Positions 27,000 through 31,685 of a stretch of 63,058 nt of DNA are shown here, piece by piece (positions within the stretch are counted from its first letter, which is position 1; each line of letters opens with the position of its first letter). The stretch is from Anaerolineae bacterium. Lineage in GTDB: Bacteria > Chloroflexota > Anaerolineae > Aggregatilineales > Phototrophicaceae. The stretch covers positions 1 through 63,058 of the forward strand of contig JALOOG010000009.1 of NCBI GenBank assembly GCA_025454525.1. Direction: 5' to 3'. Below the pieces are notes generated by a model, which was not told the DNA's origin, did not search any database, and saw only the letters and a program-made list of their open reading frames with translations. A program made the translations under genes and the position numbers.

Positions 27000-27824
27000 T
27001 TAGGGTTGGCTAACCAGACTCGACCGCTTGTTATATCGGAAATTCATCAGCGGGACGACGCGCTCATCCGGGGTACCGGCCTGTAGGATCACGCCGCCGC
27101 GTTCAACATCCATAAAGTTGTAAAAAGCGGGCGACTCGGTGTTAAATTTATCGCAAATTGACTTCGCGATCCCGTCTAAATCGGGACTATGAGTGAGTAG
27201 GACAAATTCATCATTTAACACACCGACAAAATCATGCGGCGTGCCTTTTTCGCTTACCACTTGCTGGATCACGCGGGCGGCATGTGACATCACTTGATTC
27301 GAGTTCACAAACCCATAGACATCGTTATAGGCGCTGAAGTTATCGATATTAAACGCCAACACTTGTTGATTTTGACGACGGGCGATCTCTTCTTCCACTA
27401 ACGGCCCCGTTGGCAGTCCGGTGCGGGTCTCGTGCAGATTTTCACGAGTGGCTCGGCGAATCGACCCTTGCACCCGTAAACGCAATTCGTCAATGTCAAA
27501 CGGTTTTGTAATATAATCATCTGCGCCCAACTCTAATCCCCGTACCTTACTCGCACGTTCATCGCGTTGGGTGAGGAACAGAATCGGGATATATTTGGTC
27601 ATGGACGTTTGACGCAACCGCAAACAAACATCATACCCGTCCATATAGGGCAACATCACATCTAACAAGATCAAATTAGGGAATTTCGCCCGCGCCATTT
27701 CGATTCCGGCCAGTCCGGTATCTGCGTGCAGCACTTCGTACTTATGGGACGTGAAATACATGATCAGCATTTCCGCCACATCGTGATCGTCTTCAATTAA
27801 CAGCAAACGATTGTTATTCATCAT
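27000..27824 (-). CDS. Response regulator with degenerate GGDEF domain
   Basis: Soluble 274-residue regulator. The receiver domain (residues 1-120) is intact: acidic pocket near D12/D13, phospho-acceptor Asp55, Thr85 and Lys107 (TKPFD). The C-terminal part (about 135-265) resembles a GGDEF domain (AFNIDNFSAYNDVYGF, then VLNDEFVLLTHS), but the active-site loop reads LNDEF (203-207) and the domain is short, so diguanylate cyclase activity is unlikely. It may bind nucleotide or another kinase. GAGGAG precedes tandem ATGs. Forty-five bases downstream of gatC, possibly co-transcribed. Confidence 0.85.
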   Translation of the reverse strand: MMNNNRLLLIEDDHDVAEMLIMYFTSHKYEVLHADTGLAGIEMARAKFPNLILLDVMLPYMDGYDVCLRLRQTSMTKYIPILFLTQRDERASKVRGLELGADDYITKPFDIDELRLRVQGSIRRATRENLHETRTGLPTGPLVEEEIARRQNQQVLAFNIDNFSAYNDVYGFVNSNQVMSHAARVIQQVVSEKGTPHDFVGVLNDEFVLLTHSPDLDGIAKSICDKFNTESPAFYNFMDVERGGVILQAGTPDERVVPLMNFRYNKRSSLVSQP

Positions 27825-27869
27825 GTCATCTCCTCAACCAACAGCCAGATTAGGCCGCTGTGCTGTTTT

Positions 27870-28160
27870 TTATTCGTCTAATACGGCGCTGACCCGGAAT
27901 TGATGATCCTGAGCGTCAGGGGCGTTGGCAATGGCTTGTTCGGGGCTAAGCATCTCCAGCACACGGTCGGCCCGTAGCACATTGCTTAACGGCAAGACCG
28001 AGGCCGTCGGGGCAATCTGGGAGGTGTCTAAGCTTTGCAAGCGCTCAAAGTATTGCAGGATCTTAGAAAGTTGTCCTGCGTACAACGCCACTTCTTCATC
28101 GCTCAACTGAAGTTTAGCCAGTTCCGCGATCGCCCGCACGGTTTCATGTGATAATTCCAT
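27870..28160 (-). CDS. gatC: Glutamyl/aspartyl-tRNA amidotransferase subunit C
   Basis: Small GatC subunit (96 residues) that bridges GatA and GatB in the complex forming Gln-tRNA(Gln) or Asn-tRNA(Asn). Typical opening helix LSHETVRAIAELAKLQLSDEE, then LSKILQYFERLQSLDTSQIAPTA and LRADRV. gatA and gatB are not in this window. Divergent from the TrpC-like gene, with a possible -10 (TACAAT on the minus strand near 28205). Confidence 0.92.
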   Translation of the reverse strand: MELSHETVRAIAELAKLQLSDEEVALYAGQLSKILQYFERLQSLDTSQIAPTASVLPLSNVLRADRVLEMLSPEQAIANAPDAQDHQFRVSAVLDE

Positions 28161-28343
28161 AAGTTTGATCCTATATTCGCTCTCAATTTGCGTGACTGAC
28201 TTTATTGTATAACACGACGCGAGAAAGGCGCTATTATATTACTTGAAACAGCAAACAAAAAACAAACCTTCTTTGCAAGTTTTTACACCCATTTGACCAG
28301 TTTGTCGTTACAATCACTCCCACAGACGGGCCTGAGGTAACAC

Positions 28344-29129
28344 ATGACGGTAGAACGGTTCACCGTGGATACAACAACGATCATCGCGACCAAACGCGAA
28401 AAATTACGCGAACGACAAGCCAAAACACCTACAGCAGCGGTGATCGCCCTGGCTGAGATGCAGATGCGTCCTCGTCCTGTCCTCAACATCGTCACCGGCG
28501 GCGAAACGATCGCGGTGATCGGCGTTGTGGACTATTCCGAAATTTATGATCCGGTCGGCACCGCCCTCCGCTATACCCGTTTAGGGGTGGATGCGGTCGC
28601 TTTTTTCACCGACTCCAGCATTTACGAAAACGGCCTTGAAGACCTGCTCTTGGTCTCTCGCGGGATCAAATCCCCCGTGATCAGCCAAGATTATATCTTA
28701 GATGGTTATCATGTGGCAGAGGCGCGGGCCTCTGGTGCATCCGCCTTGACCCTATATGCCTCCGTGTTGGATCACACCACGTTACGCCGTGTGGTCTCGT
28801 TAACCCAACGTTGGCGTATGACTGCATTGGTACAGGTAGAAAATGAGGCACAAGTTAACTTTGTGCGCTCCCTCAGCCCGCATGTGATCGCGGTGGGCAG
28901 CATCACCGATCACAGCTTTGAGGCGAATTTAGCGTTATTTGAGCGCTTGCGCCCAACGATCCCCTACAACATGAAATGTATGCTTCATTGTACCTTAACC
29001 ACCTTAGATCAAGTGGCCGCAATCTTAAAATTTGGCGTGGATGCGTTGCTGATCCATGAACAGATTTTGACCAACTCAACGCTCACGGATGACCTCTATC
29101 GGATGATCGATCAACACCGTCCGCGTTAA
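28344..29129 (+). CDS. TrpC-like TIM-barrel protein lacking catalytic residues
   Basis: A 261-residue protein with the length, strand/helix order and many structural motifs of indole-3-glycerol-phosphate synthase: SPVISQDYILDGYHVAEARASGASALTL and ALVQVENEAQV. The active site, however, is gone. The IAEVK-type strand reads IAVIGV (56-61), the catalytic Lys in the KDF motif is Gln115 (SQDY), the LVEVH glutamate is Gln164 (LVQVE), the NNR motif reads SITDHS (186-191) and the SES glutamate region reads MLHCTL. It is therefore unlikely to make indole-glycerol phosphate. No other trp gene is nearby. ATG with GAGG upstream; -10 TACAAT at 28309-28314. Confidence 0.8.
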   Translation: MTVERFTVDTTTIIATKREKLRERQAKTPTAAVIALAEMQMRPRPVLNIVTGGETIAVIGVVDYSEIYDPVGTALRYTRLGVDAVAFFTDSSIYENGLEDLLLVSRGIKSPVISQDYILDGYHVAEARASGASALTLYASVLDHTTLRRVVSLTQRWRMTALVQVENEAQVNFVRSLSPHVIAVGSITDHSFEANLALFERLRPTIPYNMKCMLHCTLTTLDQVAAILKFGVDALLIHEQILTNSTLTDDLYRMIDQHRPR

Positions 29130-29213
29130 ATCCGGTTTAAATTTGGTGACTTTCGTCTGGTGATTCGTTACTATTTTTGTGTGTTCGGTGTACCTGTCTT
29201 GGGGATGAAACAC

Positions 29214-31685
29214 ATGAAAAAATCTTTATTGCCAATACTCTTGTTACTTTGTCTGTTTCCGGCGGTGGTTTGGATGCAATCCAACACCCCCACACCACGT
29301 CTTGAAATTACCGGGGTGAATCCCACCGATTTACCAACCGCGATCATTACCGCCAATGTCTTTGATCCGTTAGGACAACCGCTACAGGGACTCACCCTCG
29401 CTGATTTTCGTCTTTCCGGGGCCCTCTCGGAAGTCGGTGAGATCGTCCGCGTCGAAAATGTATCAGACGATAACCTCTCGTTTGCCGTCGTTTTGGTGAT
29501 CGATACCAGTAGTAGCATGGCTGGACTCCCGATTGAACGGGCTAAAGCGGCCGCAACTGCCTTTGTCAACAGCATCGGTGAAAATGACCCCGTAGCGATC
29601 ATCACTTTTGACACCGAGACGCGCCTTGTCCAAGATTACACCACGGACAAACAAATCCTTTTAGACACGATCGCCAATTTACGTTTTGGTGGACAAACCG
29701 ATCTGTATAATGCCGCCGTAGAAGGTATCCTCAAGGCGGCCGAAGCTCCCACCCCCCGCCGTGCGATGATCCTGTTGAGTGACGGCGCACAATTTGGAGA
29801 CGGGGAAACCTTGCGCGAAGCGGCCGGCGCTGAAGCAGCGGTGCGCGGTGTTCCGATCTACACGATCGGGTTAGGTTATGGCACGGATCGCACCTATCTA
29901 CAAGAGCTTTCGGCTGCGACCAATGCCCGCAATTACGAATCCCCCACCCCCGATCAACTCACCGACATTTACAGCCAATTAGCCTCCTTATTCCGTAGCC
30001 AATACGTGCTAACCCTCAATGTCCCTGTCCCGTTAGACGGCACTGTCTATGAATTTGGCTTGCAAGCGGTGACTCCCTTTGGGGATACCGCGATCATGAC
30101 ATCCACCTTACGCGCTCCGATCCCCGTGCCGTTGATCACCTTTGAGAATCCTCCCACAACGCCGATCGGTGATCTCACCACGATCACTGCCACGATCCGC
30201 GCCGATGATGAAACCACCTTGACCGCGGCCCGGTTAGGTGATGCCCCGTTGGAAGGCCCATTTGAAGTGATCGAGTCCGATCAAATGGGCTTAACGTATC
30301 GTTGGCAAGCGTCGATCGATCCGTTTGTGTCACCGCCGGGTGAGACGACGCTTCGTTTGACGGTCACGGATGCGACAGGTGACACCGTAAGCGTCGATCA
30401 ACCGATCACGATTGCCGCCTTGCCGGCCCGTGCCACGATCGCGCCGGATCTTGCGAGTCTGGGTGAGATCGATACACCTGTCATCGTGACTGTCACGGTA
30501 GAAGAACAGACTCCAACCGATAGTGTGACGTTTGCGGTAGACGGTGAAACGATGTTCACCACTGACTCCGCGCCATTTGAATTTATGATCGTACCAGAGG
30601 ACTATAGCGCGGGTGAACATCAATTAACGATCACCCTGACCAGTGAGAGCGGCGCAACCGTTGATCTTGATCAAACCTTCACGATCGCGGTATTGCCAAG
30701 CGCGACTCCCACGCCCACAGATACTTTTACACCGACGGCCACCCTGACACCGACTCCGACAGCGACTCCCACGGCTACCATTGACTTTGCCGCTACGGAT
30801 CGCGCTGCCACTTTGAGCGCCCAAGTCACCTTAGACGCGCAAGCAACCGTTGACACACAAACCGCGTTAGATCAACAAGCGACGATCGACGCTCAAATCG
30901 TGTTAGAACAACAAGCAACCGTTGACGCGCAAGCAACCCTAGATCAACAAGCGACAATCGATGCTCAAGCGATTTTAGATCAACAAGCAACCGTTGACGC
31001 GCAAGCGACCCTAGATCAACAAGCGACGATCGATGCTCAAGCGATGTTAGATCAACAAGCGACGATTGACGCACAAGCGACCCTAGATCAACAAGCAACT
31101 GTTGACGCACAAGCGACAATTAAGGCAGAAGCGACCAACAGTATACGCATACGGCAAACGTCCACCGCCTTAAGCATGACGCTCCAAGGGGTACCTCAAG
31201 CGACCGTGATCCCCCCAACCTTCACACCCACTCGGACGCGGACTCCATTGCCAACTGCTACACTGACTCAAACCCCGTTACCGACAAACACCAATACCGC
31301 AACCTTAACTAGGACTCCCCGTCCAACCGCCACACAAACCGCGACTCCTGAACCGAGTCCCACGTCAACGAATACGGCGACTCCCGAACCGAGTCCGACG
31401 ATCACCGAGACCCTAACGCCTGAACCGACTCCAACGGTAACAGAAACCGCCATACCGACGTTGACCTTTACCCCAACGATCGATCAGACTTTAGTTGCCC
31501 AAGCCGCCCAAACACAAACTGCAACCTTTGATCCCACCTCAACACCCGTCACGATCCTTGAAGTGGGTAGCCCTGAACCTGACTCCACCAACACCTTGTT
31601 ACCGATCATCGTGGCCCTTTGTGTTGGGGTGCCATTGCTGTTCTTGTTGCTATTTTTGTTCCGACGGCGCAATCGTCAACCCTAA
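29214..31685 (+). CDS. vWA-domain surface protein with hexapeptide stalk
   Basis: An 823-residue membrane protein: signal peptide (1-25), von Willebrand A domain (about 90-270) with the MIDAS Asp97 in DTSSSM and LLSDGAQ later, two Ig-like regions, 17 consecutive hexapeptides of the form T-[LIV]-D-x-Q-A (residues 539-640), a Thr/Pro/Glu-rich linker, and a C-terminal membrane helix ending RRRNRQP. The topology places the vWA domain outside, on a long stalk. The ATG at 29214 has GGGG nine bases upstream and begins a clean signal peptide; earlier in-frame starts add an unlikely extension. Probably an adhesion or ligand-binding protein. Own hairpin terminator. Confidence 0.85.
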   Translation: MKKSLLPILLLLCLFPAVVWMQSNTPTPRLEITGVNPTDLPTAIITANVFDPLGQPLQGLTLADFRLSGALSEVGEIVRVENVSDDNLSFAVVLVIDTSSSMAGLPIERAKAAATAFVNSIGENDPVAIITFDTETRLVQDYTTDKQILLDTIANLRFGGQTDLYNAAVEGILKAAEAPTPRRAMILLSDGAQFGDGETLREAAGAEAAVRGVPIYTIGLGYGTDRTYLQELSAATNARNYESPTPDQLTDIYSQLASLFRSQYVLTLNVPVPLDGTVYEFGLQAVTPFGDTAIMTSTLRAPIPVPLITFENPPTTPIGDLTTITATIRADDETTLTAARLGDAPLEGPFEVIESDQMGLTYRWQASIDPFVSPPGETTLRLTVTDATGDTVSVDQPITIAALPARATIAPDLASLGEIDTPVIVTVTVEEQTPTDSVTFAVDGETMFTTDSAPFEFMIVPEDYSAGEHQLTITLTSESGATVDLDQTFTIAVLPSATPTPTDTFTPTATLTPTPTATPTATIDFAATDRAATLSAQVTLDAQATVDTQTALDQQATIDAQIVLEQQATVDAQATLDQQATIDAQAILDQQATVDAQATLDQQATIDAQAMLDQQATIDAQATLDQQATVDAQATIKAEATNSIRIRQTSTALSMTLQGVPQATVIPPTFTPTRTRTPLPTATLTQTPLPTNTNTATLTRTPRPTATQTATPEPSPTSTNTATPEPSPTITETLTPEPTPTVTETAIPTLTFTPTIDQTLVAQAAQTQTATFDPTSTPVTILEVGSPEPDSTNTLLPIIVALCVGVPLLFLLLFLFRRRNRQP
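30828..31133 (+). repeat. Tandem hexapeptide-coding repeat in vWA protein
   Basis: Seventeen six-codon units encoding T-[LIV]-D-x-Q-A variants, most in alternating pairs LDQQAT and IDAQAT (36-base double units). Codons are largely identical between units, a sign of recent expansion or conversion; the number of units may differ between strains. Confidence 0.85.

Follow-up and report, generated by a model that had tools for sequence, protein, structure and literature searches.

The window analysed here, a stretch of 63,058 nucleotides from an Anaerolineae bacterium (contig JALOOG010000009.1, assembly GCA_025454525.1), carries an open reading frame for a 261-residue homologue of indole-glycerol-phosphate synthase (IGPS, the product of trpC). 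The frame opens with ATG, has a single stop at its terminus and is preceded at 6 nt by GAGG, in agreement with an earlier reading of the DNA made from its letters alone (the sequence-only reading), which had described the gene as intact and equipped with a ribosome site. A promoter scan of positions 27600-29700 found 5 sites where chance predicts 2.5 +/- 1.6; it was set aside. Table 1 lists the gene, the codons at its former active site and its neighbours; f1 denotes the family to which the window's genome belongs, and f4, f5, f6 and f8 are other families of the same order.

Table 1. Features of the locus, with positions in the window
Feature	Position	Strand	Remarks
Pseudo-TrpC, IGPS-like (βα)8 barrel without catalytic residues, 261 aa	28344..29129	+	Open reading frame, Pfam, residue alignment, structure prediction
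GAGG, ribosome-binding-site-like	28334..28337	+	6 nt ahead of ATG
Codons of V61-V62-D63	28524..28532	+	β1; V61 at the E51 position, D63 at the K53 position
Codon of Q115	28686..28688	+	β3; position of catalytic K110
Codon of R156	28809..28811	+	End of the helix after β4; Arg in 58/58 order copies
Codon of Q164	28833..28835	+	β5; E159 position
Codons of G185-S186-I187	28896..28904	+	After β6; N180, N181 and R182 positions
Codons of H215-C216-T217	28986..28994	+	β7; E210, S211 and G212 positions
gatC (GatC, 78 bits)	27870..28160	-	Divergent neighbour; likewise in 34/43 f1 members and 1 f4 member
Response regulator	27000..27824	-	Beyond gatC; likewise in 29/43 f1 members and 1 f4 member
Protein of 268 aa	26129..26935	-	
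vWA-domain protein	29160..31685	+	Next gene; GTG at 29160, signal-peptide-like start at ATG 29214

The window protein matches the Pfam IGPS family (PF00218) at 83.8 bits (E 1.4e-23, cut-off 27), a score that places IGPS homology far from chance, and stays below the cut-off of all 14 NCBIfam TrpC models listed, the best reaching 102.2 against 260. AlphaFold2, run with an alignment of 23 relatives for this protein alone among the members of its clade, predicts a barrel in which β and α elements alternate, plus two helices at the N-terminus (mean pLDDT 90.7, pTM 0.88). When the model was compared with solved structures, the top matches were IGPS enzymes or designs on IGPS-like barrels, the IGPS matches lying at Z of about 29 (4fb7: Z 29.6, rmsd 2.5 Å over 251 aligned residues). 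Profile, prediction and structural matches thus agree with the first description of the protein as a TrpC homologue with the IGPS fold.

Residues of the window protein were read by alignment with the canonical TrpC encoded in the same genome and are discussed under SsIGPS numbers assigned to them by motif. All eight catalytic or substrate positions examined (E51, K53, K110, E159, N180, R182, E210 and S211) are changed: E51 and K53 have become V61 and D63, K110 and E159 are both Gln, N180 and R182 are G185 and I187, and E210 and S211 are H215 and C216. At S211, G212 and G233, which presumably bind phosphate in IGPS, the window protein has C216, T217 and H238, and the S56-P57 pair is deleted. 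In 70 canonical rows of the alignment, defined as canonical by having K110, the residues E51, K53 and E159 are present in 70/70, N180 in 69 and E210 in 68. The claim that every catalytic residue is replaced is therefore borne out at all positions examined, and the assignment of Gln115 to the catalytic Lys, of Gln164 to the Glu of LVEVH and of LHC to SES is recovered by the alignment. Two further assignments were right as to replacement and wrong as to register, with IAEVK aligning to I59-G60-V61-V62-D63 instead of to ‘IAVIG’, and NNR to G185-S186-I187 instead of to ‘ITD’. Structure prediction, which had been suggested as a check, gives a confident IGPS barrel, and the alignment shows replaced residues at its catalytic positions.

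Published mutagenesis indicates what such changes cost the enzyme. In a study of M. tuberculosis IGPS (PMC10591298), alanine at any of E57, K59, K119, E168 or E219 makes activity undetectable, and relative kcat is 0.5% for E57Q (E51Q in the numbering used here), 0.04% for K119R (K110R) and 0.01% for E168Q (E159Q). The KM of E168Q is given there as 2.4 µM against 6.9 µM for the wild type, so that a Glu-to-Gln replacement can retain binding and nearly abolish turnover. By the same account E219Q (E210Q) raises kcat about tenfold and E219N keeps 47%, and a change at E210 by itself thus proves nothing. K53, K110, E159 and N180 are called essential in a second paper (PMC7681013); in the window protein these four and E51 are changed together. 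It is scarcely credible that the protein is still an IGPS drawing its catalytic groups from other positions, as its fold and overall profile match might be taken to suggest: the acid/base and phosphate residues examined are all changed, the S56-P57 loop is deleted, its genome has a canonical TrpC, and single substitutions at the equivalents of E51, K110 and E159 already cost about 200- to >9000-fold (PMC10591298).

A search with a profile of the paralogue found a copy in at least 58 of the 154 genomes of the window's order, comprising at least 43/98 in f1 and at least 15/56 outside it (f4, f5, f6 and f8). Copies were counted when they scored above the canonical TrpCs of their genome, one for each of 58 distinct genomes, and the totals are lower bounds since copies under about 140 bits may be missed. 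K110 is absent from 58/58 of these copies, which had been defined by score beforehand. The count includes a copy in G059 that is cut by the contig end, and leaves out G060, whose copy (L203) is very divergent, and G047 and G079, where the paralogue (L205/L043 and L206 respectively) lies in two reading frames, through either decay underway or an assembly error. Named carriers are labelled Anaerolineae, Anaerolineaceae or Chloroflexi, and Aggregatilineales for L063, L068 and L070; Aggregatilineales is thus probably the order to which the window belongs.

In a survey of 396 genomes of the class, 20 were followed up, 5 in the order and 15 outside it; the latter consisting of 10 of the 15 outside genomes that had two or more matches among those listed, and of 5 with one high match. 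A K110-less copy is present in 8 of these 15. One of them, L189 in G494 (76% complete), is the only IGPS found in its assembly and has Gln at K110 with nearly all other IGPS residues kept; it is probably an f42 paralogue whose canonical gene is absent from the assembly. The phylum survey covered 151 genomes, 132 of them outside the class, and was judged by score rather than residue by residue. Two long IGPS matches were seen only in the window's genome and in G641, the second match scoring 225 bits in G641 and 82.8 in the window's genome, and by score no degenerate second copy comparable to the window's was seen in the 132 genomes outside the class.

Two trees were built with the catalytic columns excluded. 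The first, a quick tree, kept 137 of 142 domains after removal of 5 shorter than 200 aa, and the second, made with more care, used 73 hand-picked rows, from which the long branches L203 and L196 (f56) were omitted. In the second tree the 31 representative copies of the order stand on one side of a branch with support of 100/99, recovered in 200/200 bootstrap trees of an analysis that had not fully settled. In the same tree, seven K110-less copies from outside the order (L189, L197, L198 and L199 of f42; L200 and L202 of f18; L204 of f22) group with canonical TrpCs, L204 pairing as sister with L177, the canonical TrpC from the same genome (100/99). The well-supported branches of this tree force at least two changes at K110, most simply read as two independent losses, and the quick tree needs 5; losses within the class likely number more than two, perhaps four or more.

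Selection was estimated with our own NG86 code on 13 close pairs of order copies picked by hand among relatives of the window copy, whose own nearest relative is about 50% identical. In 12 of the 13 pairs dN/dS is 0.06-0.19, a rough estimate in the 7 of 12 where dS exceeds 1, and one pair is undefined through saturated dS; of five canonical TrpC pairs, four give 0.06-0.24 and one is undefined. Judged by these pairs, the pseudo-TrpC clade seems to be maintained about as strictly as TrpC itself, which upholds the earlier description of the gene as maintained. Decay into a pseudogene is very unlikely. It would fit the split copies in G047 and G079 and an apparently common loss, given a copy in at least 43/98 family genomes; it is opposed by the absence of internal stops from all 58 order copies, by dN/dS values like those of the canonical gene, and by the conserved synteny and newly conserved residues described below.

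Conservation in orthologues, which the sequence-only reading had asked about, differs from one position to another: the loss of K110 is shared by all order copies and is to Gln in 37/43 of f1, and the other replacements vary. Gln also stands at E51 in 37/43 f1 members, from which the window deviates with Val, and E159 is Gln in 22/43 and still Glu in 14/43. The N180, R182, E210, S211, G212 and G233 positions, near invariant in the 70 canonical rows, show above-median variability in f1 (percentile 0.56-0.87). The 15 order copies outside f1 have changed K110 in all cases (Asn in 6, Gln in 3, others), E159 in 14 (Gln in 9, with Glu kept in one), S211 to Gly (15), and E210 to Met (12) or Val (3), and have retained G212 in 14, G233 in 13 and K53 in 10.

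Other positions have become newly conserved in f1. Around the N-terminal helices these are R24 (42/43), A32 (43), L36 (42), M39 (41), Q40 (41) and R42 (39), the last three forming part of a conserved MQxRP motif, and in the helix after strand 4 they are R148 (38), S152 (38), Q155 (33) and R156 (43), the last of which is not conserved in canonical TrpC. The strongest of them, R24, R156 and Q40, lie on helices or loops distant from the classical catalytic positions.

Re-use of TIM barrels is common, and the barrel might now be a different enzyme, its site rebuilt around Q61/Q115, T89-D90 and Y117, perhaps for a phosphate-free ligand. The E51Q and K110Q replacements are conserved in f1, T89 is kept in 41/43 and D90 in 43/43, and selection is seen on relatives. 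We nevertheless regard this as a doubtful possibility, given that T89 and D90 are common to canonical TrpC, that the window protein does not have Q61, that six positions of the old site are more variable than the f1 median, and that the strongest new residues lie away from the classical catalytic positions.

A second, canonical trpC, whose presence in the genome had been put forward as a check, is found at G000:C202 (151665-152396, 296 bits) with all catalytic residues present, in a trpE-D-C-F-B-A region where Pfam matches TrpE, TrpD, TrpC, TrpF, a PLP enzyme at the place of TrpB, and TrpA. Around the window gene, no trp genes were found among the five neighbours tested by Pfam. A second, canonical-like IGPS match is also present in 22 of 25 family genomes with a copy, the residues having been checked in part of them.

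Genes of tryptophan synthesis were searched for in 12 copy-holding genomes, chosen since most of them showed no canonical TrpC. In five of these drafts, G039 (98% complete), G046 (96%), G052 (91%), G040 (89%) and G041 (89%), canonical IGPS, TrpA and the TrpE N-terminal domain were not found, nor was PRAI in the last three. A sixth, G043 (97% complete), has a TrpE-like match, and canonical IGPS, TrpA and PRAI were not found in it. The copy occurs together with canonical IGPS, TrpE and TrpA in G007, G049 and G057. In G086, G020 and G100 TrpE and TrpA are matched, canonical IGPS was not found and the K110-less copy is the sole IGPS-like gene; the canonical gene is likely missing because these assemblies are fragmented (940-1260 contigs, 85-95% complete), yet the three cases count against a clean story. 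They offer the reading as a still-active IGPS what support it has beyond fold and profile, and in these genomes the paralogue may be a working IGPS rather than the mark of an assembly gap.

All these absences are read from draft genomes; even so, the joint absence of trpE, trpC and trpA across three families, at completeness up to 98%, is hard to put down to assembly gaps. With five of 12 relatives keeping the copy and having no TrpE, canonical TrpC or TrpA match, its role would seem not to depend on tryptophan synthesis, which supports the new role proposed for it in the sequence-only reading, a role whose nature we infer. A regulator or stabiliser of tryptophan biosynthesis, working for instance as an inactive partner to canonical TrpC or by sensing CdRP/IGP, is accordingly improbable. 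The TrpC homology and the frequent company of a canonical-like IGPS would suit it; the five relatives just named, the similar G043, the position of the window gene outside the trp region and the loss of its phosphate site do not. Separately, one PRAI (TrpF family) match each was seen at G039:C47 and G046:C55 (78 and 85 bits), and this PRAI could be another re-used tryptophan enzyme.

The gene had been described as standing alone, which holds for trp genes and fails otherwise, since its setting of gatC, response regulator and vWA gene is conserved and all three lie in the window. The counts for f1 neighbours are lower bounds, as several loci have short flanks. The single f4 member with both gatC and the response regulator suggests a possibly old arrangement. 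Downstream of the copy, 18/43 f1 members have a vWA gene, and one is present in the window. Its product looks exported, with a signal-like start and a C-terminal hydrophobic segment, which speaks against it as a cytosolic partner; ahead of that segment, flanked by Thr/Pro-rich stretches, the window's vWA protein carries an extended series of short QATxDAQATLDQ-type repeats. A HEAT-repeat match starts -3 to 29 bp past the copy in 18/43 f1 members; no HEAT gene stands beside the window's copy. The gatC and HEAT totals exclude one match each outside the stated place (raw 35 and 19; L023 and L151). An orthologue of the L055 HEAT protein was sought in the window's own genome, and none of 13 matches was clear (best 48.8 bits, 38% identity).

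The second domain of the window's response regulator gives a weak GGDEF match (29.4 bits, cut-off 23.8), that of its L054 relative falls below the cut-off at 22.8 bits, and the domain is possibly a degenerate diguanylate cyclase domain. The 268-aa protein listed in Table 1 reaches no Pfam cut-off (DUF6585, 15.7 bits) and occurs close to the pseudo-TrpC gene in 15 of 67 scanned loci, all in f1.

Other families have other neighbours. In f42 an M16C/PreP-like peptidase gene precedes the K110-less copy, in the same orientation, in 4/4 loci (L210, L211, L212 and L213), the peptidase having been Pfam-tested in L213 and recognised elsewhere by similar N-termini; in L210 two small ORFs, which we take to be toxin-antitoxin-like, lie between the two genes. 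In f8 (L118 and L160) the copy overlaps by a few bases the next ORF, which is lipoprotein-like, of 304 or 316 aa and without a Pfam match, and upstream in L118 is a penicillin-binding protein gene with transglycosylase and transpeptidase domains by Pfam. Gene context was considered as a key to function and set aside, because neighbours that differ between f1, f42 and f8 give no single function.

We consider it reasonably probable that the gene descends from a TrpC paralogue of one origin whose IGPS chemistry disappeared early and which purifying selection has preserved as a non-catalytic TIM-barrel protein; in the window's genome it coexists with canonical TrpC. The paralogue would have arisen once in the ancestry of the order's copies. 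In a first step the chemistry would have been lost with the G212/G233 phosphate loops retained, as outside f1, leaving an early barrel perhaps still able to bind, though not to turn over, a phosphate ligand. In a second, within f1, the phosphate half would have been released, the Gln pair E51Q/K110Q fixed and new strongly conserved positions gained, which from the alignments could form a binding or adaptor surface. The HEAT-repeat protein encoded just downstream would be the best candidate partner; as its gene is missing beside the window's copy, it cannot be the sole one. The window protein itself is probably a maintained, non-catalytic binding or scaffold barrel. Counting against this account, among other points given above, the newly conserved residues could be structural, the window protein itself departs from the Gln pair at E51, and Glu remains at E159 in 14/43 f1 copies and 1/15 of the others, where a wholly dead site would not need it.

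Compared with TrpC (PF00218, EC 4.1.1.48), the copy has the same fold, length and N-terminal helices and shares the conserved residues D69, T89, D90, P111, Y122, R128 and A132. It differs in that the window copy has lost the catalytic Lys, Glu, Asn and Arg and the phosphate loops and lies outside the trp operon, and in that relatives keep it where trpE, trpC and trpA were not found. Pseudoenzymes are paralogues that have lost catalysis and persist for binding or regulation, and the copy resembles them in its intact fold, lost catalytic residues, selection and active parent alongside. The suggestion that it is a maintained pseudoenzyme with a new role is thus supported by structure, by the canonical trpC, by conservation in orthologues and by selection, the role, perhaps that of an adaptor surface, a ligand sensor or a new enzyme, being the part that we infer. 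Engineered IGPS scaffolds (Kemp eliminases such as 9hvh, and the RA95 retro-aldolases) are likewise IGPS-like barrels with their native chemistry replaced; those were designed in the laboratory, whereas here the replacement is natural and a new catalytic residue is not apparent.

We know of no described IGPS pseudoenzyme, and a literature search of open-licence PMC papers found no prior report of one. What appears new is an order-wide family forming one clade with graded intermediates and apparently independent of the tryptophan pathway, together with the Gln pair that most of f1 has fixed and the newly conserved positions. On a broader proposal we are evenly poised: that this is an order-wide Chloroflexota pseudo-TrpC family decoupled from tryptophan, which lost proton chemistry first and the ligand loop afterwards and gained a new conserved surface, with the separate Lys losses marking a repeated route of re-use. 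To our knowledge, intermediates seldom accompany pseudoenzymes derived from core biosynthetic enzymes; here partly kept members (f5, f8) and remodelled ones (f1) occur beside the active parent within one taxonomic order, which makes the order of enzyme death and re-use directly testable. For annotation, every copy tested scores above the Pfam IGPS threshold, and genomes seemingly without a tryptophan pathway would look TrpC-positive.
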